From positions 1,727,501-1,791,500 of the forward strand of contig NZ_CP108514.1 of assembly GCF_035989305.1 (NCBI RefSeq): a stretch of DNA of 64,000 nt, given 5' to 3'. A program made the translations under genes and the position numbers. Origin of the DNA: Streptomyces sp. NBC_01233 (GTDB taxonomy: Bacteria > Actinomycetota > Actinomycetes > Streptomycetales > Streptomycetaceae). Positions 14,175 through 29,925 of the stretch are shown here, in pieces (position 1 is the first letter of the stretch; each line of letters starts with the position of its first letter). Under the pieces are notes generated by a model. That model saw only the letters and a program-made list of their open reading frames with translations. It had not been told where the DNA came from and ran no database searches.

Positions 14175-14801
14175 TCAGGCCCCCGCGGACAGGCTCCGGC
14201 GCCGCTCGCGCGCCAGGGACATCGCGTGTTCCACGACCCCCACCAGCACGTCCTTCACGGATTCCCGGTCCCGTGCATCGCACAGCAGCACCGGTACCCC
14301 GGGGTCGAGGTCGAGTGCCGTCCGTACGGTCACCACCGGGTGCCGGTCGGCGCCGTCGAAGCAGTTGACGACGACCACGAACGGGATCCCGCGCCGCTCG
14401 AAGTAGTCGACGGCAGCGAAGCAGTCGGCGAGGCGGCGGGTGTCGGCGAGGACCACGGCGCCGAGCGCGCCCTGGGCCAGCTCGTCCCACAGGAACCAGA
14501 AGCGGTCCTGCCCGGGCGTGCCGAACAGGTACAGCACCAGGTCCTCGCGGAGCGTGATGCGCCCGAAGTCCATGGCCACGGTCGTGGTGTTCTTGCCCTC
14601 CACTCCCCCGGTGTCGTCGACACCGACGCCCGGCTCGGAGAGCCGTTCCTCGGTCCGCAGCGGTCTGATCTCGCTCACTGCACTGACCAGGGTGGTCTTG
14701 CCCACCCCGAAGCCGCCCGCGACCAGGATCTTCAAGGTCAGCGGCTCGACCGGCGACACCGCGTGCATGGCACCGGTGCGGCTAAAGCGCCCGAAGGCCA
14801 T
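14175..14801 (-). CDS. cvnD: Conservon Ras-like GTPase (CvnD)
   Basis: A 208-residue small GTP-binding protein of the MglA/CvnD type. The P-loop GGFGVGKT is at residues 29-36, the G3-like DxxG is replaced by FGTPGQDRF, and VVNCFDGAD is the NKxD-equivalent region. It is the last gene of a four-gene conservon and overlaps cvnC by 20 nt. Conservon proteins form a membrane-associated complex resembling eukaryotic GPCR signalling and affect development and antibiotic production in S. coelicolor. Confidence 0.92.
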   Translation of the reverse strand: MAFGRFSRTGAMHAVSPVEPLTLKILVAGGFGVGKTTLVSAVSEIRPLRTEERLSEPGVGVDDTGGVEGKNTTTVAMDFGRITLREDLVLYLFGTPGQDRFWFLWDELAQGALGAVVLADTRRLADCFAAVDYFERRGIPFVVVVNCFDGADRHPVVTVRTALDLDPGVPVLLCDARDRESVKDVLVGVVEHAMSLARERRRSLSAGA

Positions 14802-15246
14802 CGATCACCTCACGCAGAATGGATTCATCGGGCAGTTCGGCCGGTGGTACCGGCCGGGTCACATGGACCAGTTCCTCGTCGACCAGGTCGCCGATGAGGA
14901 CGCGTACGACCCCGACCGCGAGGTCGAGGTCGGCCGCGAGTTCGGCGACCGACTGCGGCCGGCCCCGGCACAGCCCGAGGATGTGGGCGTGTTCCGGGGA
15001 GAGGGTCATGTCCCAGACCGGATCGTCGGCCGCCGCTTCGGCGACGACGAGCGCGATCAGGTCGAGGCGGTGCTGACCCGCGTGGCTGGTCCGGCCGCGG
15101 GTCATGGCGTACGGGCGTACGACGGGACCCGCGTCGTCGTCGAACCAGTGCGCGTGGTCGGGGCCGTCGGCCGACAGGTCGACGGGAAAGCCGATACCGG
15201 CGGCGATGTCGGTGTCGGTGGAGTGGTCCTGGCCTGAATCGCTCAT
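14782..15246 (-). CDS. cvnC: Conservon DUF742 protein (CvnC)
   Basis: A 154-residue DUF742 protein. The family core runs from VVRPYAMTRGRT through a winged-helix-like CRGRPQSVAELAADLDLAV to the C terminus. It starts 10 bp after the end of cvnB and overlaps cvnD. CvnC interacts with the other conservon products; its biochemical role is not established. Confidence 0.9.
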   Translation of the reverse strand: MSDSGQDHSTDTDIAAGIGFPVDLSADGPDHAHWFDDDAGPVVRPYAMTRGRTSHAGQHRLDLIALVVAEAAADDPVWDMTLSPEHAHILGLCRGRPQSVAELAADLDLAVGVVRVLIGDLVDEELVHVTRPVPPAELPDESILREVIDGLRAL

Positions 15247-15256
15247 GCCGTACGAC

Positions 15257-15694
15257 TCACCCTCCGGCTGGCAGCCCGGTGCGCGGGGCGGTCGCCAGGT
15301 GGTCGCCCACTCGCTTGACCATCAGCGTCATCTCGTACGCGACCTGCCCGACGTCGGAGTCCGCGTCGGCCAGCACGGCCAGGCAGCTGCCGTCGCCCGC
15401 GGCCATGACGAAGAGGAAGGCCTCGTCGAGTTCGACCACGGTCTGGCGGACCCGGCCGGAGTCGAAGTGCCGGCCGACGCCCTTGGCCAGGCTGTGGAAA
15501 CCGGAGGCCACGGCCGCCAGGTGCTCGCTGTCCTCGCGGGTCAGGTCCTTGGAGCTGCCGGTGGGCAGGCCGTCGCCGGAGAGGACCACCGCCTTGCGGA
15601 TGGAGCCGACCCTGTCGACGAGCTCGTCGAGGAGCCAGTTGAGCGGGCCGGAGCCGCGGCCCCTGGTGTCGTTGCCGGTCTGCGGTGCGGTCAT
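15257..15694 (-). CDS. cvnB: Conservon roadblock/LC7 protein (CvnB)
   Basis: A 145-residue roadblock/LC7-domain protein (LNWLLDELVDRVGSIRKAVVLSGDG, then the central FLFVMAAGDGSCLAVLA strand). Roadblock proteins regulate small GTPases; MglB does this for MglA, and CvnB probably does so for CvnD. Its start overlaps the end of cvnA by 4 nt (ATGA at 15691-15694). Confidence 0.92.
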   Translation of the reverse strand: MTAPQTGNDTRGRGSGPLNWLLDELVDRVGSIRKAVVLSGDGLPTGSSKDLTREDSEHLAAVASGFHSLAKGVGRHFDSGRVRQTVVELDEAFLFVMAAGDGSCLAVLADADSDVGQVAYEMTLMVKRVGDHLATAPRTGLPAGG

Positions 15695-18507
15695 CGACCG
15701 TCCCCTTCGTTCTCGTATCCGGGACCGCCGGCGGCGGATGTGCCTGCCTCGGTCTCGGACTGATGCGGTGCGTGCTGGTTGCGGCCCGCCGTCCAGCCAC
15801 GCTGGAGTGCGGACATGCGCGTACGTACGTCTTCCGCGTCGCGGTCGGCCACCTGGCCAGTGGCGGCTTCGGCGGGTGCGGCGGACTGGGCCTTCTTGAG
15901 CTGGGGTGCCAGGCTGGCCTGGCGGACCCGGCGGGGCAGCCCGCCGGTGCCCGGGCCGGGTGCGGGGTCCTTGTCACCGGATCCGGCCGTGGGGGCGGCG
16001 GTGGGCTGCGGGACCGCCGACACCGGGCGCTCCACCCGGCGGCCGTGATCGGCGACCAGGGTCGGGGCGGGGCGGCGGCGCGGCAGCGGTACGGCTCCCG
16101 GGGTGCGGGGGGCGTCGGGTCGCGAGGCCTCCGCGCGCTGGGTCTCCAACCGGACGGGGCCGGTGGGGGCGAGCGATTCGCGGTCGCGGTCGTTCTTGCG
16201 GGCGCCGTTGCGCTCGGTGTGCCGGTCGGTGTGCGGCCGGTCCGCCGGGCGCAGGCCCAGCAGGGCGCTGCGCGGGGTGCCGTTCGGCGGGGTCTCGTCG
16301 TCGAGGGTGGCCATGACGGGGCGGCCGGCGGCGCCGGTGCGACCCGCGATCCCGGCGGTGGCGCCGTCCAGGACGGCGGGGTCGTCGAGCGGGTCCAGGC
16401 CGCGGTCGACGAGCGGGGCCTCCAGCTCGACCGGGCCGCGCAGTTCGGCGGCGGGCAGCGGGCGGCCGGACGGGGCGCGCTCCACGGCGACGGGCGCGGG
16501 CCGCTCGGACGTCGTCCGGCCGGTGTGGCCGGCATGGGCGGGCGAGGCGGCCCGTACGGACTTGGCGGCCGCCCGGGCGCCTTCGAGGCGCATGCCGTTG
16601 CCGTTGGTCTCGGGGGCCTCGGTGAGCAGGGCCACGGGGAGGAAGACCACCGCGGTGGTGCCCCCGTACGGGCTGGGCTGGAGGACGACCTTGACGCTGT
16701 GGCGCTGCGCGAGGCGGCTGACGACGAACAGGCCGAGGCGGTCGGTGTCGGAGAGTTCGAACTCGGGGGTCTCGGCGAGCCGGAGGTTCGCGTCGAGCAG
16801 GGCTTCCGGGGTCATGCCGAGGCCGCGGTCGTGGATCTCCAGGGTGAAGCCGTTGGCCACGCGCTCGCCGTGCACCTGTACCGCGGTGTGCGGCGGGGAG
16901 AACACCGTGGCGTTCTCGAGGAGTTCGGCGATGAGGTGGGTGATGTCGGCGACGGCGGGGCCGACGATGCCCAGGCGCGTGAGGCGGCGCACCTCTATGC
17001 GCTCGTAGTCCTCGACCTCGGCGACGGCGGCCCGTACGACGTCCATCAGCTGGACGGGCTTGCGCCACTGGCGGGAGGGCGCGGCGCCGGAGAGGATCAC
17101 GAGGCCCTCGGCGTGGCGGCGCATGCGGGTGGTCATGTGGTCGAGGCGGAAGAGGTCGGCGAGTTCCTCGGTGTCCTCGGTACGGCGTTCCATGGTGTCG
17201 AGGAGCGTCAGCTGGCGGTGCAGGAGCACCTGGTTGCGGCGGGCCAGGTTGACGAACACCTCGGAGACACCGCGCCGCAGGTCCGCCTGCTTGACGGCGG
17301 CCTCGACGGCGGCGCGCTGGAGGGTGTTGAGGGCCTGGCCGACCTGGCCGACCTCGTCCTTCTCGTATTCGAGGTGGGGCGCCTCGGTCTCCACGTCAAC
17401 CGGCTCGCCGGCGGCGAGGCGGCGCATCACGCTGGGCAGCCGGACGCCGGAGGCCTCGTGGGCCTCCTTGCGCAGCCGGGACAGGTCGCGGACGAGGTCG
17501 CGGCCGATGCGGACGGAGAGGACCAGGGACACGATGAGGGCGATGAAGCCGAGCACACCGGCGGCGGCGGCCTGGATCATGACGTCCATGGCGACGGGTT
17601 CGATGCGCTGCTGGTAGCGGTCGCCCGCGGCCGTGTTCATGGCCGCCAGGTCTTCGAGGACCTTGGCCGCGGCCTCGTCCCACTGGGCGGGGGTGACGCT
17701 GCGCGGCTTGTTGACGGCGCCGCCTGCGATGAACCGTTCCTCGGCATCGCGCAGGGGCTTGGTCTGAACGTCCTTCCAGTAACTCTCGAAGCGTTCCCGG
17801 TCGTCGGCGGGGAGGGTCACGAGGTTGAAGTCGTAGAGCAGCGTGCGGTTGGCGGCGAAGTCGGAGACGTGGCGCACGTCGGGTGCGGTGACGTTGCGCG
17901 CGGCGAGGGCGGAGGCGATGACGGCGTCCTCGCGGGAGAGCAGCTCACGGGCGCGGCTGATGCCGATGAGGGCGCGGCCCTCCTTGTCGACCTCCACGTT
18001 GTCCAGGCCGTGGAGGTTCATGAGGAAGTCGTAGCAGGGGTCGACCAGCCGGTTGTAGAGCTCCAGGGCCTGGGTGGGGTCCAGGGCGTTCTGGTCGACG
18101 GAGCGGCGCATGGCACCGATGCCCTGGAAGGCGCCGACGATGGAGCGCAGGCGCTGGGCGCTCTGCGAGCTCAGCTCGTCGATGACCTTGGCGTCGCGTG
18201 CGCTGACGCTGATCTGCTCGACGGCCTCGTCGGTTTCGGCGCGGCGCTTGGTGAGTTCGGCGGTGGCCGTGGCGGCCCGCGGGTCGCCGAGGACGACGAG
18301 GGTCTGGCGCCGTTCCTTCTGGATGACGCGGACGACGTCCTCGACGGGGTAGCCGACCTTGTCGATCACGTAGGCCACGTCGAAGAGTTGGATCGCCTGA
18401 CGGCCGGTGATGACCGTGGCGAAGCCCCAGAGGGCCGTCAGGGAGACGAGCGGCACAAGGAGCAACGCCACGATCTTCCGGCGGATGGACTTCCCGCGAA
18501 AGCGCAT
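15691..18507 (-). CDS. cvnA: Conservon sensor histidine-kinase-like protein (CvnA), nitrate-sensor type
   Basis: A 938-residue membrane sensor. TM1 is at about 11-33, an extracellular nitrate/nitrite-sensing-like (NIT) domain at 50-300, TM2 at 308-333, HAMP at 334-400, a helical region with LFRLDHMTTRMRRH around His457, then HATPase_c with N box HLIAELLENATVFSPP (524-539) and G1 DRGLGM (560-565). Beyond about residue 660 the tail is long, proline/arginine-rich and probably disordered. No response regulator is adjacent, as usual for conservons. A GGGGAGG SD precedes ATG 18507. The ligand is unknown. Confidence 0.93.
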   Translation of the reverse strand: MRFRGKSIRRKIVALLLVPLVSLTALWGFATVITGRQAIQLFDVAYVIDKVGYPVEDVVRVIQKERRQTLVVLGDPRAATATAELTKRRAETDEAVEQISVSARDAKVIDELSSQSAQRLRSIVGAFQGIGAMRRSVDQNALDPTQALELYNRLVDPCYDFLMNLHGLDNVEVDKEGRALIGISRARELLSREDAVIASALAARNVTAPDVRHVSDFAANRTLLYDFNLVTLPADDRERFESYWKDVQTKPLRDAEERFIAGGAVNKPRSVTPAQWDEAAAKVLEDLAAMNTAAGDRYQQRIEPVAMDVMIQAAAAGVLGFIALIVSLVLSVRIGRDLVRDLSRLRKEAHEASGVRLPSVMRRLAAGEPVDVETEAPHLEYEKDEVGQVGQALNTLQRAAVEAAVKQADLRRGVSEVFVNLARRNQVLLHRQLTLLDTMERRTEDTEELADLFRLDHMTTRMRRHAEGLVILSGAAPSRQWRKPVQLMDVVRAAVAEVEDYERIEVRRLTRLGIVGPAVADITHLIAELLENATVFSPPHTAVQVHGERVANGFTLEIHDRGLGMTPEALLDANLRLAETPEFELSDTDRLGLFVVSRLAQRHSVKVVLQPSPYGGTTAVVFLPVALLTEAPETNGNGMRLEGARAAAKSVRAASPAHAGHTGRTTSERPAPVAVERAPSGRPLPAAELRGPVELEAPLVDRGLDPLDDPAVLDGATAGIAGRTGAAGRPVMATLDDETPPNGTPRSALLGLRPADRPHTDRHTERNGARKNDRDRESLAPTGPVRLETQRAEASRPDAPRTPGAVPLPRRRPAPTLVADHGRRVERPVSAVPQPTAAPTAGSGDKDPAPGPGTGGLPRRVRQASLAPQLKKAQSAAPAEAATGQVADRDAEDVRTRMSALQRGWTAGRNQHAPHQSETEAGTSAAGGPGYENEGDGR

Positions 18508-18605: not shown

Positions 18606-18860
18606 GGCGTGTCCGGACGTTTTCGGCCGGACCCCCGGACGAAGATCACCAGTTGTCCGACATTTCCGGTCAAGAGCAGCCCGATATGCGGCAGATGACA
18701 CTTGGTGGGGCGTCAGTTCCTGCAACCTGATGGATGGCTGGAATTGTTCGTTCCGCGATCATCGGGGCGCGTGGAGGCATCCGCGATTCGGGAATCTCTC
18801 GGTGCCGCCGGACGTCTGTCTGTTCGAGGGCCACGTCGGGGGTAGATGTGGTGGGTAGGC

Positions 18861-19343
18861 ATGGCGGACCGCGGCGTGGGGAGTGAGCGGACCATGAGCA
18901 GTGACGAGCGCGGCGGGGCGGTTTCGGACGCGTACGCCGGAGCGGCGGGGCGGGGGCTGTGGGTGGAGGAGCCGGCCCGCCGGCGCCGGATGCCCGATCC
19001 GGTGCGGACTTCCGCGGTGCGGGCGGTGTTGATCGTGGCCGTGACCCTGACCCAGGCGGCGATCACGTTCTTCCTGACCCTGACCGGCTCCTGGCTGGCC
19101 CTGCCGATGTCGCTCGGCGCGATGGCGGGGACGATCGTGGCCACGTGGGGCGTGCTGGACGTGTGGATCACCCGGCAGACGTGGAACCAGCGCTACGGGG
19201 TCCTCTCGGAGCCGAGCAGCACGGCGCGCAGCCGCCGCCGTGAGGCCCGCAGGGCCGCCCGGGCCGCCCGCGAGGCCGCCCCGGGCCGAATACCCCGGGA
19301 CGACGGCCCCCTCACGGCCTTCGGCCGCTCCGCCTCCCCCTGA
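18861..19343 (+). CDS. Small membrane protein, unknown
   Basis: A 160-residue protein with two predicted membrane segments (AVRAVLIVAVTLTQAAITFF and LPMSLGAMAGTIVATWGVL), followed by a strongly basic, Arg/Ala-rich cytoplasmic tail (ARSRRREARRAARAAREA). The start is uncertain: ATG 18861 has GGTGGG upstream and ATG 18894 (MSSDERGG) has GGGAG at longer spacing. It is divergent from the conservon, which is compatible with a functional link but does not show one. I do not recognise the family. Confidence 0.7.
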   Translation: MADRGVGSERTMSSDERGGAVSDAYAGAAGRGLWVEEPARRRRMPDPVRTSAVRAVLIVAVTLTQAAITFFLTLTGSWLALPMSLGAMAGTIVATWGVLDVWITRQTWNQRYGVLSEPSSTARSRRREARRAARAAREAAPGRIPRDDGPLTAFGRSASP

Positions 19344-19536
19344 CGGCGGACCGGTCCCTGCTCGCCTGCGGCGGGCACGGCGGGGCCGGCCGACGTCACC
19401 TGCCGGGCGCGGCTGCCGCACGCGGCCCGACGGACGGGGTCCGGCGCAGCGGCCGAAGCCCGTGAGGCGCCCGCGCGCCGAGCGGCGCGAGGCGGGCGTC
19501 AGGACGGCTGGCGGGCGTCAGGAAGTGTGGCGTGCG

Positions 19537-22500
19537 TCAGGAGACACCGCTGCGGCGGAACATGCGGGTGGCGGTGATCTCGCCGTGGATGGTCTCCTCC
19601 TCCGGGGACTGCTGCGGCAGGCCCGGGCGCAGGTGTTCCTCGACGCTGATGTACTTCAGGCCCGCCCGCAGGTCCGCGTCGTTGCGCAGCCGGATCACCA
19701 GCGGGAACTCGGCGAGGGCCGTGGTGTCGAACAGGCCCGTCGTGTACAGCAGCTGGACGCCGAGCGCGTCGGAGACGGCCCGCTGGAGCTCCAGCAGGTA
19801 CGTGGCGTTCGCGCGGCCGATCGGGTTGTCGAGGAACAGCGTGCCCGCGTGGCGGTGCTTGTCGCGGCCGCGGTCGTTGCTGCGCAGCGCCGCCATCGTG
19901 CAGTAGAGGGCGATCGCGGCGGTGAGCAGCTGCCCGCCGGAGAAGACGTCCCCCATCTGGCCGACGGGGACGCGTTCGGCGCGCAGCACCGCGTCCGGCT
20001 TGAGGATCTCCACGGAGATGCCCTTGGGTTCGAGGGCCGCCTGGACGCCCCTCAGCAGCAGGGACATGCCGTCGCGGCGGCCCTCGCCGAAGGAGGCGGT
20101 GCTGTTCTTCTTCACGGCCGCGCGGGTGGCCTCGTCGATGACCTCGCCGAGCCGTTCCGTGAGCGTGGCCTGGTCCGGCTCCTCGAAGCGGATCCGCAGG
20201 AACTCCTGGCCCGACCATTCGCCCAGGCCCTCCGGCAGCTGGGAGAGGCGCTGCGCGGAGCGGAGCGTGGCCAGGGCCGATTCGACGAGGCCGCGCAGGC
20301 GGTCGACGATGCTGTCGCGGTTGCGCTCCAGCTGCGCCAGTTCATCGGTGAGGACGCGCAGCCGGGGGGCGAAGGCCGCCGCCCAGGCTGCCGCGTGCTC
20401 GGGCAGGGCCGCGGCGGGCAGTTCCCGGATCTGTTGGCGCGCGGGGGTGCGTACCTGCTCGTAGCGGGTGGCGTTGGCGTGCCGGACCAGGATGTCGCTC
20501 GCCTCGCGCACCGCGGACTCGGCGGCCGACAGGTCGGCCGCGCAGCCGCGCAGGGAGCGTCGGGCCTCGGTGGCCGACTGGCGGGCCTCCTCCAGGGTGC
20601 CCGGGTGGGGCACCGGCTCCTGCTCGTCCTCGGCGTGCGCGTGATCGCGCAGGAGGTCGCGGAGCAGGGCCGCGGTCTCGTCGAAGCCGCCGGCGCCGTC
20701 CTCGGCCGTGCGGTGGGCCCGCAGCAGGTCCGCGTGGGCGGCGCGGGCGCTCTCCACGGCCGCGGTGTGGGCGGCGAGCTGGGCGGTGGCCGTACGGAGC
20801 AGGGCCTGGGCCTGCTCGACGTCCCCGGGGACGAGCTCCTCGGGCAGTTCGGTGTGCGCCTCGCCCTCGGCGGGGGCGTGCCGCTCGGCCTCGCCGCGCA
20901 GCCGGCCGAGCTGCTCGCTGGCGGTGGACGCGCGGGTCTCCAGCATCTGGACGAGGGACTCGGCGCGGGCGGCGGCGGCCTGCCGGGAGGGGCCGTCGGC
21001 GCCGTCGGTGCCTTCGAGGAGCTGGGCGGCGCGGGTACGGACCTTGTTGGTGAGGCGGTCGAGTGCGGCGAGGGCGGCGCTCTCGTCGCTCTCGGCGCGG
21101 GCCTGTTCGGCGCGCAGGTCGGCGCCGACGCCCACCTTCTCGTAGAGCTGGGAGGCCGCGCGGTAGGCCTCGCGGAGGTCCGGGAGGGGCACCCGCGGGC
21201 CGTCCCCGTCCCCGTCGGGCAGCCGGTCGGGGGCGCCGGCGATCTCGGCGCGCTCGGCGCGCAGGGCGCGGGCGGTGCGGCGGGCGTCGTCGGCCGCGCG
21301 CTGGGCGGCGCGGCGGTCCTCGTCGGCGGCGCGGGCCCGGTCCAGGCAGACCTCGGCGCGGGCCTCGGACTCGGCGGCCTCGTCGGCGAGTTCGCGGAGC
21401 CTGGCCTGCCAGCCGGCCCGCTCGCGCAGGCGGAAGGCGAGGCCGGCGAGGGCGTCGGCGACGCGGCGGGCGCGCTGGGCGGTGTCCTGGCGCTCTTCAC
21501 GGACGCGGGCGGCGTCGGCGGCGGCCTCGGCGGCCTCGGCGCGTACGGTACGGGCCTCCGCGAGCTCGGCGTCGGTCTCCTCGGCGAACGCCCGGGCAGC
21601 CGCGGCCTGTTCGGCGAGTTCGGCGAGGCGGCCGGGCGGGCAGCCGGTGCGCCAGGAGGCGAGGCGGGCGGCGAGTTCGCGGTCACCGGAGAGGCGGGCG
21701 GCGAGTTCGCGGATCTCGGTGTCACGGGCTCCGGCGCGGGTGCGCAGCGCCTGGCGCTCCTCGTCGGCGGCGTGCTCGTCGTGCATGGCCGGGTTCGGCG
21801 GTACGAGGAACACCCCGGAGTCGGCCGCGTCGCCGGCCGGCGGCAGCGGGGCCAGCAGCGCGGCGGCCGTACCGACGGCGACGGTGGACCGGGGCAGCAG
21901 GGCGGCGCCGGAGAGGACCTCGCGGGCCCGGCCGTGCGTGTCGGGGTCGGTGATGACGACGCCGTCGACGAGTTCGGGACGGGCGGCGAGGACGGCGGCG
22001 TGGTCGGCGGGGTCCACGGACTGGGCGAGGTAGCGCCAACCGGGCAGGGCGGGGATGCCGTGCTCGCCGAGGTACTCGACGGTGGCGAGGACGTCGGGGC
22101 CGGGCGGCAGGAGGCCGCCGTCGCCGAGCGCGCCGAGGATGCGGGAGTCGTCGGCGGCGGCGGTGCGGAGCTCGAACAGTTGGCGTTCGGCCGAGGCGAC
22201 CCCGTCGGTGAGCAGGTGCCGGAGGTCGTCGGCGTTCCGGTCGAGGTCCGCGACCGTGAGTCCCTCGCCGGCGGCGGTTGCGGTGTGGCCCGGCTCCGGG
22301 GTGTCGGAGCCGGTGCCTGCGCCGGTCGGCGTACCGCTGCGCGGGCGCGGGAAGGCCGGGGCGTGGGCGGAGGGCAGGCCGAGGAGCTCGGCGAGACGGG
22401 GCGCGGCGGCGAGGGAGGCCGCCGCCCGGTGCTCGGCGTCGTGGGCGGCCTCGGCGGCGTCGGCGGCGTCCGCCGCACGGGCGGCGGTGAGCTCGGCGCG

Positions 22501-24213
22501 GGATTCCGCGGCGGCTGCCTCGCGGGCGGCTTCGGCGGCCGCGCGGGCGGCCTCCCGGGCCTCGTCCCAGGCGGCCACGGCGGTCTTCTCGGCGTCGGTG
22601 GCGGCGAGGGCCGCGCGCGCCGGGTCGGCGTCGGGGGCGGAGTCGTCGAGCCAGCCGGCGCGGACGGCCTCGGCGGTCTCCTGCTGGACCTCGGCGAGGC
22701 GCGAGCGGAGGTGCTCGGCCTCGCTGCGGGCCCGCTGGGCGGCCGTGGCGGCGGCGGTGGCGTCGCGGTGGGAGTCCTCGCCGGTGGCCTGGAGGGCGGC
22801 GGAGCGCTCCTCCTCCTCGTTGGCGAGCCGTTCGCCGTGCTCGGCGGCGGTGTGCAGGGCCCGTACGAGCTCGCCGGCGGCCGTGGCACGTGCGGCGAGC
22901 GCGGGGGCGGCGTCCCGCTCGGCCTCGCGGATCGCGGCGGCGACGCGGGCGGAACGGTCGGCGGCTGCGCGGTGGCGGAGCACGATCTCGGCGGCCTGCC
23001 ACGCGGAGTGCAGCGTGCGGGCTTCGAGGAGTTCGCGGCGCTGGGCGGCAGCGGCCTTGTCGGCGACGGTCAGGGCCAGCGAGGCGTGCCGGTAGGCGAG
23101 TTCGGCGGAGACGGCGGCGCTGCGGGCGCGGGCGGAGTCGGCGGCGGTGACCTGGTGGGCGGCGCCGGTGACCTGCTGGGCGAGGTCGGCGGCGCGGCCG
23201 CGTTCCTCGGCGGCGCGGGCGGACAGCCGCCGGGCGAGGGTGCGCGTACGGCGTTCCGCGCCCGCGTGGACGTCGCGCAGGCGGGAGCGGGTCCCGGCGG
23301 CCTCGACGATCTTGGTGAGCAGGTCCACCGAGCCGGCGGTGAAGTCGCGTTCGGCCATGAGCTCGGCGCGGCGGCCGAGCTTGTTGCCGAAGCCGTGGAC
23401 GAGGTCGGCGAGGCCGTCGGTGTCGCGGGTGTCGGTGACGGCGCGCAGCAGGAGGTCGGTGAAGTCGGAGTCCTTCTTCACCGCGAACAGGCCGGCCGCC
23501 TCGCCCTCGTCGGCGTTCATCTCGCGCTGGTAGCGGAAGAGTTCGGGGTCGAGGCCGAGTTCGGTGAGGTGCTCGTTCCAGCGGTCATGGATCTCCTCGA
23601 AGTACACCTCGAGGTGCGGGTAGGCCTTGCCGGCCTCGGTGAGGGCGTCGCGGAAGCCCTTCATGGTGCGGCGGCGGCCCTGGGCGCCGGAGGCGCCTTC
23701 GACGGGCGCGCGCACGGCGGTGGCCTCGGCGACGGGCAGGTTGTCCAGGCCGAGGCCCGGGCCGGGACGGAAGGAGTACCAGGCCTCGGCGAACTTGCGG
23801 GGGTCGTTGGAGACCTGGCGGCCGCGCCACTCGCTGACCTTGCCGACGACCACGCACTCGCCGGTCTGGGTGTGCTGCCACTCCAGGGCCACGTGGCCGC
23901 AGTCGTCGGCGAGCAGGAACTTGCGCAGGACGCCGGAGCTCGCGCCGCCGAGGGTGTTGCGGTGGCCGGGCAGCATCACGGAGAAGATCAGCTTGAGGAG
24001 GACGGACTTGCCGCCGCCGTTCTCCAGGAAGAGCACGCCGGCGGGCGCGGGTCGGCGCGGCGGGCCGGTGGGCTCGTCCTCGAAGAACTCCGCCTGGGCC
24101 GGCGCCGGGTGGGGCACCGGCTCGCCGACTCCGCGCAGGTCGAGCACGGTGTCGGCGTAGCGCGCGCCGGCGGGCCCGATGGAGTAGAGGCGGATCCGGG
24201 ACAGCTCGTACAT
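19537..24213 (-). CDS. SMC/MukB-like ATPase (JetC/MksB type)
   Basis: A 1558-residue P-loop ATPase with SMC architecture. Walker A NGGGKS is at 65-70 in the N-terminal head. A very long Ala/Glu/Arg-rich region (roughly 270-1300) looks like antiparallel coiled coil around a hinge. The C-terminal head has the ABC signature FSGGQ (1424-1428) and a Walker B-like GTLFLDNPIGRAN (around 1458-1470), with Asn where SMC proteins have Glu after the Asp. This resembles MukB, MksB and the TIGR02680/JetC family. It is the last gene of an operon with an MksE/JetB-like and an MksF/JetA-like gene. Expected role is chromosome organisation or plasmid restriction. Confidence 0.82.
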   Translation of the reverse strand: MYELSRIRLYSIGPAGARYADTVLDLRGVGEPVPHPAPAQAEFFEDEPTGPPRRPAPAGVLFLENGGGKSVLLKLIFSVMLPGHRNTLGGASSGVLRKFLLADDCGHVALEWQHTQTGECVVVGKVSEWRGRQVSNDPRKFAEAWYSFRPGPGLGLDNLPVAEATAVRAPVEGASGAQGRRRTMKGFRDALTEAGKAYPHLEVYFEEIHDRWNEHLTELGLDPELFRYQREMNADEGEAAGLFAVKKDSDFTDLLLRAVTDTRDTDGLADLVHGFGNKLGRRAELMAERDFTAGSVDLLTKIVEAAGTRSRLRDVHAGAERRTRTLARRLSARAAEERGRAADLAQQVTGAAHQVTAADSARARSAAVSAELAYRHASLALTVADKAAAAQRRELLEARTLHSAWQAAEIVLRHRAAADRSARVAAAIREAERDAAPALAARATAAGELVRALHTAAEHGERLANEEEERSAALQATGEDSHRDATAAATAAQRARSEAEHLRSRLAEVQQETAEAVRAGWLDDSAPDADPARAALAATDAEKTAVAAWDEAREAARAAAEAAREAAAAESRAELTAARAADAADAAEAAHDAEHRAAASLAAAPRLAELLGLPSAHAPAFPRPRSGTPTGAGTGSDTPEPGHTATAAGEGLTVADLDRNADDLRHLLTDGVASAERQLFELRTAAADDSRILGALGDGGLLPPGPDVLATVEYLGEHGIPALPGWRYLAQSVDPADHAAVLAARPELVDGVVITDPDTHGRAREVLSGAALLPRSTVAVGTAAALLAPLPPAGDAADSGVFLVPPNPAMHDEHAADEERQALRTRAGARDTEIRELAARLSGDRELAARLASWRTGCPPGRLAELAEQAAAARAFAEETDAELAEARTVRAEAAEAAADAARVREERQDTAQRARRVADALAGLAFRLRERAGWQARLRELADEAAESEARAEVCLDRARAADEDRRAAQRAADDARRTARALRAERAEIAGAPDRLPDGDGDGPRVPLPDLREAYRAASQLYEKVGVGADLRAEQARAESDESAALAALDRLTNKVRTRAAQLLEGTDGADGPSRQAAAARAESLVQMLETRASTASEQLGRLRGEAERHAPAEGEAHTELPEELVPGDVEQAQALLRTATAQLAAHTAAVESARAAHADLLRAHRTAEDGAGGFDETAALLRDLLRDHAHAEDEQEPVPHPGTLEEARQSATEARRSLRGCAADLSAAESAVREASDILVRHANATRYEQVRTPARQQIRELPAAALPEHAAAWAAAFAPRLRVLTDELAQLERNRDSIVDRLRGLVESALATLRSAQRLSQLPEGLGEWSGQEFLRIRFEEPDQATLTERLGEVIDEATRAAVKKNSTASFGEGRRDGMSLLLRGVQAALEPKGISVEILKPDAVLRAERVPVGQMGDVFSGGQLLTAAIALYCTMAALRSNDRGRDKHRHAGTLFLDNPIGRANATYLLELQRAVSDALGVQLLYTTGLFDTTALAEFPLVIRLRNDADLRAGLKYISVEEHLRPGLPQQSPEEETIHGEITATRMFRRSGVS

Positions 24214-24267
24214 GGCGGCGGACTCTCGTGGTGTCTGGTGACGCAGGGCGTACGGAGGACGGGTGGC

Positions 24268-25167
24268 TCAGGCGTGGAACGGGAGCCCGGCGTCGGCGGC
24301 CAGGTCCAGGTCGTCGCCCTCGGGCGGCGGCAGCAGGGTGGGGGAGCCGTCGGAGACGGGGACCACGCCGAGTTCCAGGAGTTCGGCCATGGCCGCACTG
24401 CCCGCCATGTCGCGGACCTGGAGCTGGTAGCGGGGGGTGGTGCGGTACGTGCCACCGGACTCGTCGCCGGTGCGCTGCAGGAAACCGGAATCGGTGAGGA
24501 AGGCGGCGGCCTTGCCGACGATGCCGGTGGTGGAGCCGGCCAGGCGGCGGGCGTCCTTGGTGGCGCCGGTCGCGCTGCGGCGGGCGTAGACGCGCCAGGC
24601 GGCCTCCAGGCCGGGGGCGTCGGAGGCCGGGTCGGTGTTCTCACCGGTCTCCTCGGCGCGCTCCTCCAGACGCCGGCAGGTCTGCCGGACGAAGGAGTCG
24701 ACGCCGTTGACGGTGATGCGGCCGATGTAGCCGTCGTCGGCGAGGTCCTCGGGGCGGGGGAAGGCGAGGGCGGCGACGGCGAGGTGGGCCAGGCCGTGCA
24801 GGAACCGGTCGGCGGAGTCGGCGGCGGTGCGGCGGGCGTAGTCGCCCATCCGGACGGCGAAGACGGAGTCCTCCCCGGCGGCAACGGCCATGCCCGCGCG
24901 CGGGGACACCTCCAGGACGACGAGGCCGAGGCCGGTGGCGACGGCGTCGGCGAGGCGGCCGAAGCCGGGGTCCTCGCGGTAGCGGCGGAGCAGCTCCGCG
25001 TACTCGGCGTCACGGGCGGGGAGCAGCTTGGGCTGCAGCCCGAAGGCGACGAGCCGGGCCGCGTCGGCGGCGTCGGCAGGGGTCACCGCCGGGTTCGCGG
25101 CCGCGACGGGGGTGGCGGGAGCCGCGGGCTCGCTCCACGCGGGGTGCTCGGCGTGGTGGTCGCTCAC
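24268..25167 (-). CDS. MksE/JetB-like SMC accessory protein
   Basis: A 299-residue protein that I assign by context as the small winged-helix subunit of the SMC operon. The sequence includes ATKDARRLAGSTTGIVGKAAA followed by LTDSGFLQR and TYRTTPRYQLQVRDMA, which reads like a winged helix. Start GTG 25167 has GAGGAG seven bases upstream and overlaps the stop of a short upstream ORF (GTGA). It ends 54 bp before the SMC gene. Homology to MksE/JetB is inferred, not established. Confidence 0.65.
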   Translation of the reverse strand: MSDHHAEHPAWSEPAAPATPVAAANPAVTPADAADAARLVAFGLQPKLLPARDAEYAELLRRYREDPGFGRLADAVATGLGLVVLEVSPRAGMAVAAGEDSVFAVRMGDYARRTAADSADRFLHGLAHLAVAALAFPRPEDLADDGYIGRITVNGVDSFVRQTCRRLEERAEETGENTDPASDAPGLEAAWRVYARRSATGATKDARRLAGSTTGIVGKAAAFLTDSGFLQRTGDESGGTYRTTPRYQLQVRDMAGSAAMAELLELGVVPVSDGSPTLLPPPEGDDLDLAADAGLPFHA

Positions 25168-25400
25168 GGGTACGTCTCCTCGGCGGTGCGGGTCGTTCGG
25201 GCGGTACGGGTGCTGCGGGCCGCGCGGGCGGTCGTGCAGGTACGGGTGCACGCCGGTGCGGCGGCTTCGGCGGCGGTCGGGTCCTGTCCGGCGGGGACAG
25301 GCCCCCGCGCCCCGGGTCGGGCCCGGCCCGACGCCCACGTGGGCGCGGGGCGACCCGACATGTTCAGTCTCGCCGGGGCTGAATGTGCGACGGCTGTCAT
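25164..25400 (-). CDS. Small ORF linking the JetA-like and JetB-like genes
   Basis: A 78-residue open frame that starts in an ATGA overlap with the end of the JetA-like gene and stops in a GTGA overlap with the start of the JetB-like gene, filling the gap exactly. Third codon positions are largely G or C. The product is basic at its C terminus (ARSTRTARTTRTAEETYP) with no recognisable domain. It may be a real small protein, or only a translated coupler that carries ribosomes to jetB. Confidence 0.45.
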   Translation of the reverse strand: MTAVAHSAPARLNMSGRPAPTWASGRARPGARGPVPAGQDPTAAEAAAPACTRTCTTARAARSTRTARTTRTAEETYP

Positions 25401-26902
25401 GACGCCTCCGCGCGGTCGGCGGCCATGCCGGCGGCGTCGAGGAGGGCGGTGCCGACGATGAGGTCGGCGCCGCCGAACTGGGGGTCGTCGAGCTGCGTGC
25501 CGTCGTCCACCGCGAAGAGCAGGCGCTCCTCCCCCTGCCGGTACGCCGTGCCCACCGCCGGGCTCGCCGCGTGGACGGCCAGCAGGGCCACCAGGTACGG
25601 CAGGTCCGCATCGCTGCGCCGGGCCTCCGCGAGGAGCCCCGACAGCCGCCGCGGTGCGTCGTGCGGGAGGTCCAGGAGCTGCATCGCGGCGGCGAGCTGC
25701 TCCTCGCTGAAGCGGCTGTCGTCCGGGGTGGCGATGAGGTCCGGTTCGGGCATCTCCGCGCCGAGGTGCTCGCGCTCCACGGGCGGGGTGAGCAGGATCT
25801 CGACCAGGTCGGCCACGCGCACCGAGACCGGCGTGCGCAGCCCCGCCCCGGACGCGAAGAAGGCGTCGGTCACCCGGCTCGCCTGCTCCAGGGGCAGCGG
25901 CAGGAGCGGGGCCACGAGCTGGCCGTACAGGTCGATGCCGGAGCGCGGCGCCGGAGCGGCGAAGGCCTGGCGGTCCTGCTCGGCGCGGAACAGCGGGCCC
26001 GCGTCCAGCAGCCGGGACTGGAGCTGGGTGTGGCGGCGGATGCAGTCCTTGACGATGTCGACGAGCTCGGCGGCACGGCGCTTGCTCTCCGGCTCCTCGG
26101 CCTCGTCGCGCGCCTTGCGGATGTTGGTCAGGATCGCGTTCTCGTGGCGGTAGCGGTCCGCGACGTGGTCGAGGGCCTCGGCGATCATGTCGGGCACGGC
26201 CTGCAGCCAGTCCACCGCCCGGACGTTGCGCCGGGTCGCGTCCAGCGTGCGGCGCAGGGTCTCGGCGTACTGGACGGTCCGGTAGCGGGCCTGCTCGGCG
26301 GCCAGCTGGGCGTCCGCCAGCCGCCCGCGGCTGATCAGCACCTCCAGTTTGACCTCGGCGGCGATCTGGGCGCTGGTGACGTCGGTGTCGAGGGCGCCGA
26401 CCAGGACGTTGACGGCCTCGTCGGTGGTGCGCAGGTAGACGGCTCCGCCGTAGCCCGGGACCTCCTCGATCAGCTTGAAGTCGTAGTCCCGGCGGACGTA
26501 GACCCCGTCCGGGCCGAAAGTGCCGTAGATCGCGCGGAAGCCGCGGTCGACGCTGCCGACGTTGATCAGGTTCTCCAGCACCCAGCGGGCCACCCGCTCG
26601 TGCTCGGCCGCCGGGCGCTGCGGGGCCTGGGCCGCGATGCGCGGCAGCAGTCTGGCCACTATCTGCTCGTGGTCGGCGCCCGTGTCGAAGTCCATGTTGA
26701 GCGTGATCAGGTCGATCGCGGCCAGCGCGACCTCCGCCATCGCGTAGACCCCGTACTCGCCCGCCAGATTGGCCTTGCGTACGTCGAGGTCGTGCAGCGG
26801 GGCGGTGCAGGCGAGGGCGCGCAGCCGCCGGGCCAGGCCCTCGTCGGCGGCCGGGCCCGGCGCCGGGGACGGGAGGGTCTTCGCCGGGGCTGGGAGAGTC
26901 AC
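25397..26902 (-). CDS. MksF/JetA-like kleisin subunit of SMC operon
   Basis: A 501-residue, largely helical protein beginning RRLRALACTAPLHDLDVRKANLAGEYGVY. It contains a central region rich in long helices (IAAEVKLEVLISRGRLADAQ...) typical of kleisin-like subunits of MukF/MksF/JetA. It lacks membrane segments. GTG 26902 was chosen; no SD is visible, but TAGTCT ends exactly six bases before it, suggesting a leaderless mRNA. It heads the operon JetA-like, small ORF, JetB-like, SMC. No JetD/MksG-like nuclease gene lies on either side (pxpA on the right, an unrelated small gene on the left). Confidence 0.7.
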   Translation of the reverse strand: MTLPAPAKTLPSPAPGPAADEGLARRLRALACTAPLHDLDVRKANLAGEYGVYAMAEVALAAIDLITLNMDFDTGADHEQIVARLLPRIAAQAPQRPAAEHERVARWVLENLINVGSVDRGFRAIYGTFGPDGVYVRRDYDFKLIEEVPGYGGAVYLRTTDEAVNVLVGALDTDVTSAQIAAEVKLEVLISRGRLADAQLAAEQARYRTVQYAETLRRTLDATRRNVRAVDWLQAVPDMIAEALDHVADRYRHENAILTNIRKARDEAEEPESKRRAAELVDIVKDCIRRHTQLQSRLLDAGPLFRAEQDRQAFAAPAPRSGIDLYGQLVAPLLPLPLEQASRVTDAFFASGAGLRTPVSVRVADLVEILLTPPVEREHLGAEMPEPDLIATPDDSRFSEEQLAAAMQLLDLPHDAPRRLSGLLAEARRSDADLPYLVALLAVHAASPAVGTAYRQGEERLLFAVDDGTQLDDPQFGGADLIVGTALLDAAGMAADRAEAS

Positions 26903-27002
26903 GGACAAAGACTAGGCGCTGTTGCTGACAACATCCCAAACGGCACGGTTCGGCCGGATCGTCCCCGGCCGAACCGCGGGACGCCTGCTCTACGCTCAGC
27001 GC
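26903..27002. promoter_or_regulatory. Divergent, apparently leaderless promoters (SMC operon / pxpABC)
   Basis: Leftward: TAGTCT (plus 26909-26914 region) stands six bases before GTG 26902, with TTGGGA 19 bp further up. Rightward: TACGCT at 26991-26996 stands six bases before ATG 27003. Neither start has a Shine-Dalgarno sequence. TGTTG-CTGA-CAACA at 26920-26933 is an inverted repeat within the leftward promoter spacer and could be an operator. Confidence 0.45.
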
Positions 27003-27797
27003 ATGGATTCCATGATCGCATCCTCTCCCGTGGTCGACCTCAACGCCGACCTCGGCGAGGGCTTCGGGCGCTGGACGCTCACCGACGACGAGGCCCTGCT
27101 CTCCGCCGTCACGAGCGCCAACGTGGCCTGCGGTTTCCACGCCGGGGACCCGTCCATCATGCGCCGGGTCTGCACACTGGCCGCGGAGCGGGGCGTACGG
27201 ATCGGGGCGCAGGTCTCCTACCGCGATCTGGCCGGCTTCGGACGGCGCGCGATGGACGTGCCGGCCGGCGAGCTGGCGGACGAGGTGGCCTACCAGATCG
27301 GCGCGCTGGAGGTGTTCGCGCGGGCGGCCGGCTCCCGGGTGTCGTACGTGAAACCGCACGGCGCGCTGTACAACCGGACCGTGCACGACGGCGACCAGGC
27401 GGCCGCCGTGGTCGCGGGCGTCCGGCTGGCCACCGGATCCGGTGCCACCGGGGGCCTGCCCGTCCTCGGGCTGCCCGGATCGCTCCTGCTCGCCGCCGCC
27501 GAGGGGGCCGGGCTGGCCGCCGTACCGGAGGCCTTCGCCGACCGCGCCTACACGCCGGCCGGGGCGCTCGTGCCGCGCACCGAGCCGGGAGCGGTGCTGC
27601 ACGACCCGGACGCGGTGGTGGCGCGGGCGGTACGGATGGCCGCCGAGGGGACGGTGGCGGCTGCCGACGGGTCGCCGGTCCCGGTGGCCGCGCGCTCGCT
27701 GTGCCTGCACGGGGACACCCCGGGCGCGGCCGTGCTCGCGCGACGGGTCCGGGAGGCGCTGGGCACGGCCGGGGTCCGCGTGGAGGCCTTCGCGTGA
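27003..27797 (+). CDS. pxpA: 5-oxoprolinase subunit A (LamB/YcsF family)
   Basis: A 264-residue LamB/YcsF protein, the hydrolytic subunit of the PxpABC 5-oxoprolinase that converts 5-oxo-L-proline to glutamate with ATP. Motifs visible are DLNADLGEGFGRW, NVACGFHAGDP and YVKPHGALYN. Its stop overlaps the pxpB start (GTGA at 27794-27797). The start is placed at ATG 27003, where the family begins; ATG 27012 is an alternative. Oxoproline is a damage product of glutamine, so this is a housekeeping repair system. Confidence 0.93.
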   Translation: MDSMIASSPVVDLNADLGEGFGRWTLTDDEALLSAVTSANVACGFHAGDPSIMRRVCTLAAERGVRIGAQVSYRDLAGFGRRAMDVPAGELADEVAYQIGALEVFARAAGSRVSYVKPHGALYNRTVHDGDQAAAVVAGVRLATGSGATGGLPVLGLPGSLLLAAAEGAGLAAVPEAFADRAYTPAGALVPRTEPGAVLHDPDAVVARAVRMAAEGTVAAADGSPVPVAARSLCLHGDTPGAAVLARRVREALGTAGVRVEAFA

Positions 27798-28414
27798 GGC
27801 CCCTCGTGGTGGGCGGCGAGGCGCTGCTGATCGAGCTGGACTCGGCCGCGGAGGTGGCCGCGCTCCACGCCGAGCTGCTGCGCCGCCGGGACGCGGGCGA
27901 GCTGGGCCCCGTACGGGACCTGGTGCCGGCGGCGCGGACCGTACTGCTGGCCGGGGTGCGGGACCCGGCCGCGCTGGGGGCCCGGATCGCCCGCTGGGAG
28001 GTGCCCGCGCTCGCGGAGGCGCAGGGGCTGCTGGTGACCGTGCCGGTGCGGTACGACGGGCCGGACCTGGCGGAGGTGGCCCGGCGGTGGGGGGTGTCGC
28101 CGCGGGAGGTGCCGGGGATCGTCGGCGGCACCGGCTTCCGGGTGGCCTTCTGCGGTTTCGCCCCCGGCTTCGGCTACCTGACGGGGCTCCCGGAACGCTT
28201 CCACCTGCCCCGCCGTGAAACGCCCCGTACGGCCGTCCCGGCGGGCTCGCTGGCGCTCGCCGGCGCGTACGCGGGGGTGTACCCGCGCTCCTCCCCCGGC
28301 GGCTGGCAGCTGATCGGCTCCACGGACGCGGTGCTCTGGGACCCGGAGCGGGAACCGGCGGCGCTGTTCGCGCCGGGCGTCCGGGTGCGGTTCGCGGAGG
28401 CGGGCCGTGACTGA
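27794..28414 (+). CDS. pxpB: 5-oxoprolinase subunit B (KipI family)
   Basis: A 206-residue KipI-like protein. The family core GFRVAFCGFAPGFGYLTGLP and RRETPRTAVPAGSLALAG is clear, as is SPGGWQLIGST. GTG 27794 overlaps pxpA and the end overlaps pxpC by 8 nt. Together with PxpC it phosphorylates and activates oxoproline. In Bacillus the homologues KipI/KipA modulate sporulation kinase A, but the three-gene set here points to oxoprolinase. Confidence 0.92.
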   Translation: MRPLVVGGEALLIELDSAAEVAALHAELLRRRDAGELGPVRDLVPAARTVLLAGVRDPAALGARIARWEVPALAEAQGLLVTVPVRYDGPDLAEVARRWGVSPREVPGIVGGTGFRVAFCGFAPGFGYLTGLPERFHLPRRETPRTAVPAGSLALAGAYAGVYPRSSPGGWQLIGSTDAVLWDPEREPAALFAPGVRVRFAEAGRD

Positions 28415-29273
28415 GCTGCTGGTGGTGCGGTCGGGCGCGCTGACGACGGTCCAGGACCGGGGGCGCCCGGGATACGCGCACCTGGGCGTCCCCCGCTCGG
28501 GAGCGCTGGACGCGGCGGCGTACGCGCTGGCCAACCGGCTGCTCGGCAACCCGCCGGACGCGGCTGCGCTGGAGACGACCCTGGACGGGACCGGGCTGCG
28601 GGCGCTCGCCCCGACGGTCGTGGCGGTCACGGGCGCCCCCTGTTCCGTACGGATCTCCGGTCGCCCGGCGGCCTGGGGAGCGGCGGTCCGGCTGCCGGCC
28701 GGGGCGGAGCTGGAGGTCGGCCCGGCGGAATCGGGGCTGCGCAGCTACGTCGCGGTACGGGGAGGCCTGGCCGTCCCGCCGGTCCTCGGCAGTCGCTCGA
28801 CGGACCTGCTGTCGGGCCTGGGGCCGGCCGTCCTGTCGGCCGGGATGCGGCTGCCGGTGGGCCCCGCCGGGCCGGATCCGGCGCCCGGGGCGGACCTCTG
28901 CGCCCTGCCCGGCCCGCCTGCGGAACTGCTGCTCCCGCTCCGCCCGGGGCCGCGCGCGGACTGGTTCGCGCCGGCTTCGCTGGCCGGGCTGTGGCGTGCG
29001 GGGTTCCGGGTGTCGGCGAGGTCCAACCGCATCGGCCTGCGCACGGAGGCGGGCCCGCCGCTGGTCCGCGCCCGGCCCGGGGAGCTGCCGAGCGAGGGCA
29101 TGGTGCTGGGCGCGGTCCAGGTCCCGCCGGACGGCCTGCCGGTGGTGTTCCTGGCCGACCACCCGGTGACGGGCGGCTACCCGGTGGTGGGCGTGGTCCC
29201 GCCGGGCCCGGCCCTGGACGCGGCGGCGCAGGCCCGGCCGGGGACTCCGGTGAGGTTCCTGCGGTCCCGATGA
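28407..29273 (+). CDS. pxpC: 5-oxoprolinase subunit C (KipA family)
   Basis: A 288-residue biotin-dependent-carboxylase-like (KipA/AHS2) protein beginning LVVRSGALTTVQDRGRPGYAHLGVPRSGALD. Later family motifs are SNRIGLRTEAGPPL and LPSEGMVLGAVQVPPDGLPV. GTG 28407 overlaps pxpB. It is the last gene of the pxpABC operon; the next gene is an unrelated sigma factor with its own promoter region. Confidence 0.92.
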   Translation: MTELLVVRSGALTTVQDRGRPGYAHLGVPRSGALDAAAYALANRLLGNPPDAAALETTLDGTGLRALAPTVVAVTGAPCSVRISGRPAAWGAAVRLPAGAELEVGPAESGLRSYVAVRGGLAVPPVLGSRSTDLLSGLGPAVLSAGMRLPVGPAGPDPAPGADLCALPGPPAELLLPLRPGPRADWFAPASLAGLWRAGFRVSARSNRIGLRTEAGPPLVRARPGELPSEGMVLGAVQVPPDGLPVVFLADHPVTGGYPVVGVVPPGPALDAAAQARPGTPVRFLRSR

Positions 29274-29346
29274 AACGTTTGCGGGCGCTCCGGCCAAGTA
29301 CGGAGTGAGGGGGCCGACCGGGTCCCGACGCAGGGGAGGAACCAGG

Positions 29347-29925
29347 GTGCGAAGCCCAGGACAGAAGACCGGGCCACCGGAGCTCACCACGCACGACGGG
29401 TTCGGCGCGTTCTACGAGGAGCACATCGACGCCGTGCTCGGCTTCGTCACCCGCCGGGTCGCCGACCCGCACCTGGCGGCGGACCTGACGGCGGACATCT
29501 TCCTCGCGGCAATGGGCTCGGCCACCGGTTATCGGCCCAACAGGGGGGCGCCGATCGCCTGGTTGTTCGGGATAGCCCGCAACGTGCTGTCGGGCCACGC
29601 CCGCGGACTCGTCCGCGAGAGCGGCGCGCTGGCGCGGCTGAGCGGCCGCCGCCTCCTCGAGGACGAGGACGTCGCCGCCCTGGAGGAACGGATCGACGCC
29701 CAGCGGGCCTTCAGATCCCTCGCCGAGCGCCACGCCGCGCTCTCCGAGCCGCTGCGCGCCGCCCTCGACCTCGTGGTCATCGACCAACTCACCCCGGCCG
29801 AGGCCGCGCAGGCCCTCGGGGTCACCCAGGCGACGGTCCGCGTCCGCCTGCACCGCGCACGGCGCGCGCTGCGCGGGACCGAGCCCGCCGCCGTCACCGA
29901 GCCCAAGCTGGAGGCAGCCCGATGA
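29347..29925 (+). CDS. ECF-family RNA polymerase sigma factor
   Basis: A 192-residue protein with sigma region 2 (YEEHIDAVLGFVTRRVADPHLAADLTADIFLAA) and region 4 (LTPAEAAQALGVTQATVRVRLHRARRAL). GTG 29347 has a strong GGGGAGGA at 29333-29340. It overlaps the next gene by 4 nt (ATGA). A TGAAAC at 29271-29276 upstream resembles an ECF -35 element, which could mean autoregulation, but no convincing -10 is seen. No classical zinc anti-sigma gene follows; the downstream membrane protein may take that role. Confidence 0.9.
   Translation: MRSPGQKTGPPELTTHDGFGAFYEEHIDAVLGFVTRRVADPHLAADLTADIFLAAMGSATGYRPNRGAPIAWLFGIARNVLSGHARGLVRESGALARLSGRRLLEDEDVAALEERIDAQRAFRSLAERHAALSEPLRAALDLVVIDQLTPAEAAQALGVTQATVRVRLHRARRALRGTEPAAVTEPKLEAAR

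Follow-up and report, generated by a model that had tools for sequence, protein, structure and literature searches.

The window described here is a stretch of 64,000 nucleotides from Streptomyces sp. NBC_01233 (contig NZ_CP108514.1, positions 1,727,501 to 1,791,500), and this report concerns a three-gene operon on its minus strand that resembles the JetABC part of the type III Wadjet anti-plasmid system. The first gene in the order of transcription is jetA-like (25397..26902, minus strand, GTG start) and encodes a 501-amino acid (aa) protein predicted by the PADLOC JetA3 profile to be the kleisin subunit, the counterpart of MukF/MksF. It is followed, after about 230 bases, by a jetB-like gene (24268..25167, minus strand, GTG start) for a 299-aa protein whose fold ranks point to the KITE subunit, the counterpart of MukE/MksE, and, after another 54 bases, by a jetC-like gene (19537..24213, minus strand, ATG start) for a 1558-aa SMC ATPase, as judged from the PADLOC JetC3 profile and its motifs. 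The three open reading frames (ORFs) lie where the first-pass annotation, made from the sequence alone, had placed them and have the lengths that it gave.

Two of the three proteins are identified by profile. JetA matches JetA3 (PDLC00567) over residues 17-499 with an E-value of 7.8e-186, and JetC matches JetC3 (PDLC00588) with an E-value of 0 and 1387 bits; both the kleisin and the SMC ATPase of Wadjet type III are thus present by PADLOC profile. None of the three proteins was convincingly matched by Pfam or NCBIfam: no Muk or Mks family matched in either at E <= 1, and the Pfam SMC and ScpA families did not match. A separate ScpA gene is present elsewhere in the genome. The first-pass annotation had proposed a check against TIGR02677-02680, the Wadjet type II cassette; this gave no NCBIfam match at E <= 1, and it was the PADLOC type III profiles that matched instead.

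JetB of the window has no profile match in Pfam, NCBIfam or PADLOC. Even among its relatives the JetB3 profile matches weakly (E 0.0038 for L106 and 0.02 for L072) or not at all (L068 and L074). An AlphaFold2 model of JetB (29-row alignment, mean pLDDT 69, with values below 50 at residues 1-22) was compared with known structures by Foldseek, and ranks 1-8 are all chains of MukE-MukF or type I/II Wadjet JetABC entries. These matches are weak (E-values from 6.6e-3, the best, to 0.25, none below 0.001). Seven of the eight chains have lengths of 176-206 residues, which fits MukE/JetB; the eighth, 9qe0_D (384 residues), could not be assigned. The JetA model (37-row alignment, pLDDT 62) ranks MukBEF, MukEF and MukF chains 1-3, with E-values of 0.026-0.51 that are too weak to stand alone. 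In both models a Muk chain comes first (MukE-MukF for JetB, MukBEF for JetA), which is the likeness to Escherichia coli MukBEF; the resemblance is, however, weak and at the level of the fold, and the window operon exists beside SMC-ScpAB rather than replacing it. JetA and JetB each have more than 1000 relatives in the database, and relatives of all three proteins are present in the Streptomyces loci that were fetched.

The best reading of these profiles and folds is that the operon encodes a three-subunit SMC machine of the Wadjet type III lineage, with a JetC dimer, JetA as kleisin and JetB as KITE. The composition of SMC, kleisin-like and MukE/JetB-like proteins claimed in the first-pass annotation is borne out by the JetA3 and JetC3 profiles and the weak JetB fold ranks, and can be refined to type III. 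The gene set is that of MksBEF and MukBEF, i.e. SMC, kleisin and KITE without a nuclease, the KITE member being recognized by a weak fold match.

JetC contains a Walker A motif (ENGGGKS), a signature motif (FSGGQ) and a Walker B motif (LFLDNP), the same three that had been read earlier (there as NGGGKS, FSGGQ and LFLDNP). The asparagine that replaces the usual catalytic glutamate, which had been singled out, is indeed present, but it is not special. D-N-P was seen in 43 of the 55 JetC frames examined, and 14 of these 43 come from JetD-bearing operons or genomes; the remaining 12 frames are truncated or broken and do not have D-N-P (one is a false regular-expression match in a fragment). In these sequences, then, the Walker B asparagine is common to JetD-bearing and JetD-less JetC and is not peculiar to the window protein. 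Among Streptomycetaceae JetC frames Walker A is found in 56 of 57, and the signature plus LDNP in 48 of 57; the frames that miss motifs sit at contig edges, except for those of L041 and L162.

JetD, the nuclease of the Wadjet system, was searched for in two ways. In the genome of the window's strain (10.3 Mb, 4 contigs, 100% complete) no JetD was found by PF09983, which did match the Corynebacterium glutamicum positive control, and none was found by alignment A1 of 11 type III JetD proteins (134 first-look candidates, 14 scored). These 11 all keep the Toprim-type residues E-N and G-D-x-D without variation. Three of the A1 proteins (from L072, L056 and L068) and that of L121 match the PADLOC JetD3 profile PDLC00594 with E-values of 5e-95 or better. 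PF09983 alone misses five of 13 JetD3 genomes (G006, G020, G085, G089 and G144), so the search with the JetD3 alignment is the stronger of the two. These results agree with the earlier statement that no nuclease gene adjoins the operon: neither JetD nor a JetD remnant occurs in the window's operon, and no nuclease family was recognized among the scanned genes that flank it. A JetD gene in the operon of close relatives, which the first-pass annotation would have counted against its reading, did not turn up: tblastn (E 0.01) found neither JetD nor a remnant in any of 50 Streptomycetaceae loci where jetC is followed by 1.2 kb or more, nor in the 11 Frankiaceae and 33 other JetD-less loci with that much downstream DNA.

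The operon is close to universal in its genus and family. A JetA match was obtained in 149 of the 151 Streptomyces genomes, and the best match listed for 148 of them has 81-98% identity, a few of these matches being clipped by contig ends. A family survey that covers JetA only, by a profile (A2) that includes JetD-bearing rows, found JetA in 120 of 121 Streptomycetaceae genomes and in all 16 genera. The ratio of nonsynonymous to synonymous substitution rates (dN/dS) between the window and eight orthologues is 0.05-0.14 for JetA, 0.13-0.22 for JetB and 0.12-0.19 for JetC, and the core operon is under purifying selection, although the values are rough because of the strong codon bias. In the same order, JetD-bearing copies gave 0.13-0.21, 0.18-0.25 and 0.27-0.30, a comparison that rests on three pairs; another pair, L113/L121, as low as the core at 0.06, 0.13 and 0.10, includes one JetD-bearing member, L121.

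A near-universal operon without a cutter suggests that a defence system has been turned into an ordinary chromosome-organising complex. We estimate a probability of roughly 0.6 that this nuclease-less type III Wadjet derivative is a second complex of condensin type, working alongside SMC-ScpAB, a role inferred from the analogy with the JetD-less MksBEF of Pseudomonas aeruginosa and from the presence of ScpA in the same genome. The JetABC core has no detectable JetD and would work without that nuclease, binding DNA and extruding or bridging loops with ATP like other Wadjet/MukBEF cores. With no cutter, its output would be chromosome organisation or segregation, as for a second condensin of the MksBEF kind; that it acts during sporulation or hyphal segregation is a guess. 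P. aeruginosa MksBEF likewise has three subunits and no nuclease, and its origin is thought to be a JetABCD system that lost JetD (PMC10586767). It differs in that the window proteins have no Muk/Mks sequence match in Pfam or NCBIfam and match type III profiles instead. Of the three options raised in the first-pass annotation, a housekeeping condensin would fit best, a distant nuclease is unsupported by the two JetD-family searches of the genome, and a defence remnant is disfavoured because of the family-wide presence and the purifying selection.

Several points weigh against a second condensin. Three genomes in 670-1140 contigs (G070, G145 and G499) show neither JetA nor JetB, which is either an assembly gap or a true loss, and the JetA match of G114 is only weak (E 1.9e-69), so the operon may be dispensable. 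The jetC frames appear broken in L041 (6289-9627) and L162 (12110-15571), away from contig edges, which may reflect errors of sequencing or, in single species, decay of the core operon. Confidence in the JetA and JetB models is low to moderate, and the neighbourhood is partly conserved, with both flanks of the window present in 24 of 43 testable loci. Hydrolysis of ATP is assumed, though the usual catalytic glutamate is an asparagine in this class, and it is possible that a nuclease of another, non-JetD family acts in trans.

The broken jetC frames, together with the lack of a component that is required in the Wadjet systems tested, are what one would expect if the operon were left over from a defence system and decaying. 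We consider this very improbable, since most loci have full-length ORFs with the ATPase motifs, dN/dS is 0.05-0.22 and the operon is kept in 16 of 16 family genera.

Complete JetABCD systems do exist in the genus, as accessory copies. JetD-family proteins of any type were found by PF09983 in 19 of 151 Streptomyces genomes, and JetD3 in 14 of 151, of which 13 are solid matches and one (G010) is a weak partial match. All 13 solid JetD3 genomes lie among the 14 Streptomyces genomes with at least two JetA matches; the sole genome with at least two JetA matches but no JetD3 is G121, which has one JetB. The association is strong (Fisher p 8e-18 over the 149 genomes with JetA, or 1e-16 if G010 is counted). 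JetD lies directly 3' of a divergent JetC in the nine of these 13 genomes that were opened at the locus level (L068 and L071-L078; the other four are G020, G085, G089 and G144). Because JetD3 tracks multiple JetA and adjoins the divergent JetC, it is the extra copy, not the core copy, that the nuclease accompanies. One genome (G303, locus L079) has a partial operon outside this simple pairing, with a JetD3-like ORF and a piece of JetC but no second JetA. Two loci labelled as JetD-bearing (L066 and L070) are on contigs that end inside jetC, and a JetD is found on a different contig of each genome (L080 and L086), while L081-L085 hold other JetD-like proteins with no JetA, JetB or JetC match.

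In two genomes JetD3 is duplicated, with one copy close to each end of the chromosome and the two in opposite orientation (G085:C1:15693 and 9222602; G144:C1:66621 and 8038761), as if in terminal inverted repeats. Another JetD-family protein recognized by PF09983, a 533-aa frame, also has two opposite end copies (G122:C1:34292 and 8497867; G047:C1:34320 and 10642375). A survey of Actinobacteria describes Wadjet in 42% of genomes, with enrichment towards the chromosome ends in Streptomyces (PMC10482375).

The window operon shares with Wadjet type III the JetA3 and JetC3 profiles, the gene order A-B-C and the D-N of Walker B; it differs in that JetD is absent from operon and genome by two profiles, and in its near-universal rather than patchy distribution within the family. 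These likenesses leave room for another explanation, namely that JetABC has kept a role in defence against plasmids or phages that needs no cutting, either by loading on small circular DNA and silencing or sequestering it or by handing DNA to a nuclease encoded elsewhere. Its subunits match those of the anti-plasmid sensor, JetD-bearing copies of the same class are present in the genus, and Smc5/6 is described as acting on extrachromosomal DNA in a similar way (PMC10586767). We regard this as unlikely, though the strongest of the alternatives: the near-universal presence is unlike that of the patchy JetABCD copies, the genome has no JetD-family nuclease by the two profiles, and the core dN/dS is below that of the three JetD-bearing pairs, even if L113/L121 is equally low. 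MksBEFG (EptABCD) of C. glutamicum and Mycobacterium smegmatis, likewise an actinobacterial Wadjet-type SMC complex, differs from the window operon in carrying the MksG/JetD nuclease, and JetD of C. glutamicum is assigned to type I (PMC10123090 and PMC10586767). PADLOC demands all four Wadjet genes (PMC9252829). If the condensin reading is right, matches to JetA and JetC by themselves do not signify plasmid defence.

JetD-less operons are also found outside the family. JetA relatives of 57-64% identity occur in Frankiaceae (family named from protein names), where 18 loci are labelled JetD-less, 17 of them with jetC and 11 with enough downstream DNA; one further locus, L056, carries JetD. Another 40 loci come from named taxa such as Amycolatopsis, Prauserella, Nocardiopsis and Actinoallomurus; six of them have JetD, one is cut short, and the other 33 lack JetD although enough DNA follows jetC to show it. 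The named-taxon loci are the best 80 of 547 confirmed JetA matches, and the 60 loci of the family comprise 20 from Streptomyces genomes and 40 from named genomes, 57 of them with jetC. A survey of the class found JetA in at least five of 105 genera, a lower bound because another search found JetA in Amycolatopsis, Prauserella and others.

In JetA+JetB trees the JetD-less operons of Streptomycetaceae form one clade and those of Frankiaceae form one clade. A single clade for all JetD-less operons was rejected by a tree test. On a second, quick JetA+JetB tree (53 chosen rows, without the very long branches L069, L070 and L077 and most near-identical loci), the presence of JetD requires five changes. 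One such difference can be seen between close relatives. Amycolatopsis rifamycinica L121 has JetD, and L113, its closest neighbour in the tree, lacks that segment of about 1.1 kb; the segment is also missing in five other Amycolatopsis loci (L115, L119, L120, L123 and L125), with both flanks aligning at 81-93%. These alignments would imply either a recent gain in L121 or repeated loss in its relatives. Putting these patterns together, we give about even odds to the view that Actinobacteria repeatedly made a chromosomal SMC complex without a nuclease out of a type III Wadjet directed against plasmids, in at least two independent lineages (Streptomycetaceae with or without Frankiaceae, and Amycolatopsis/Prauserella), one of which has it fixed as a core condensin throughout the family, with JetD being a modular piece behind jetC, as seen in A. 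rifamycinica and its close relatives.

In two Amycolatopsis loci a gene for an AlkZ-like DNA glycosylase lies downstream of a JetD-less jetABC (L106:18232-19419, called by Pfam, and L090:16854-18143, called by look). Next after it in both is what looks like a glyceraldehyde-3-phosphate dehydrogenase-like gene. The glycosylase would fit a different, lineage-specific job for the complex, e.g. DNA repair, and the handling of linear chromosome ends could be another. We find such a job rather improbable, as no repair gene was seen among the scanned flanking genes of the window, and Frankia also keeps the operon, yet has circular chromosomes. The chromosomes of Streptomyces are linear (PMC8410768), and in Borrelia, which also has a linear chromosome, MksB is described as taking part in long-range folding without MksE/F (PMC10406323).

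If a second condensin is the correct interpretation, two conserved SMC complexes are present in Streptomyces, which serves as a model for sporulation and for the folding of linear chromosomes. The genus would then offer a natural experiment on the conversion of an SMC immune sensor into an organiser of the chromosome, since it contains both nuclease-free core copies and nuclease-bearing accessory ones. We found no description of this operon in the titles and abstract beginnings of open-licence PMC papers, and in a word search of two papers on Streptomyces SMC (PMC13121528 and PMC8410768) 'Wadjet' is absent and 'MksB' appears once, in a reference.

Two sequence peculiarities further distinguish the window proteins from type III Wadjet. 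JetB has a longer N-terminus, with an extension of about residues 1-26 in the JetB alignment (25090..25167, minus strand), and JetC has a low-complexity Pro/Gly-rich insertion at residues 614-642 when aligned with six JetD-bearing JetC proteins (22288..22374, minus strand, computed from the residue numbers). The extra JetB stretch is present in 12 of 12 Streptomycetaceae rows and eight of nine Frankiaceae rows and is absent from JetD-bearing JetB proteins that start at their own Met; the start codons in this alignment are those of the open frames, trimmed by script. The N-terminus of JetB is reported to touch JetD in type I Wadjet (PMC10586767). Nevertheless, the stretch and the insertion are no general mark of nuclease loss, because JetB proteins of the Amycolatopsis type with a Met of their own at the start (L090, L093, L098 and L106) do not have the stretch and the three Amycolatopsis-type JetC proteins measured are short (1475-1488 aa).

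The genes to the right of jetA, all on the plus strand, are LamB/YcsF (pxpA), as the first-pass annotation had said, then two carboxyltransferase genes (CT_C_D and CT_A_B) and a sigma-70-type factor (26922-29925). To the left of jetC there is a 220-aa ORF (18759-19421) without a Pfam match, followed by a minus-strand cluster of a NIT-domain histidine kinase, a Roadblock/LC7 protein, a DUF742 protein and an ATP/GTP-binding protein (14175-18507), which has the make-up of a 'conservon'. In 38 of the 49 family loci with 3.5 kb of DNA 3' of jetC, the histidine kinase is found there in the same orientation as jetC, and pxpA is found 5' of jetA in 38 of 60 family loci (35 of the 52 with 5.5 kb there). 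Neither flank was seen at the Frankiaceae or other loci outside the family. A 2073-aa open frame on the plus strand (19240-25461) runs antisense to jetC and jetB and is taken for an artefact of the high GC content.

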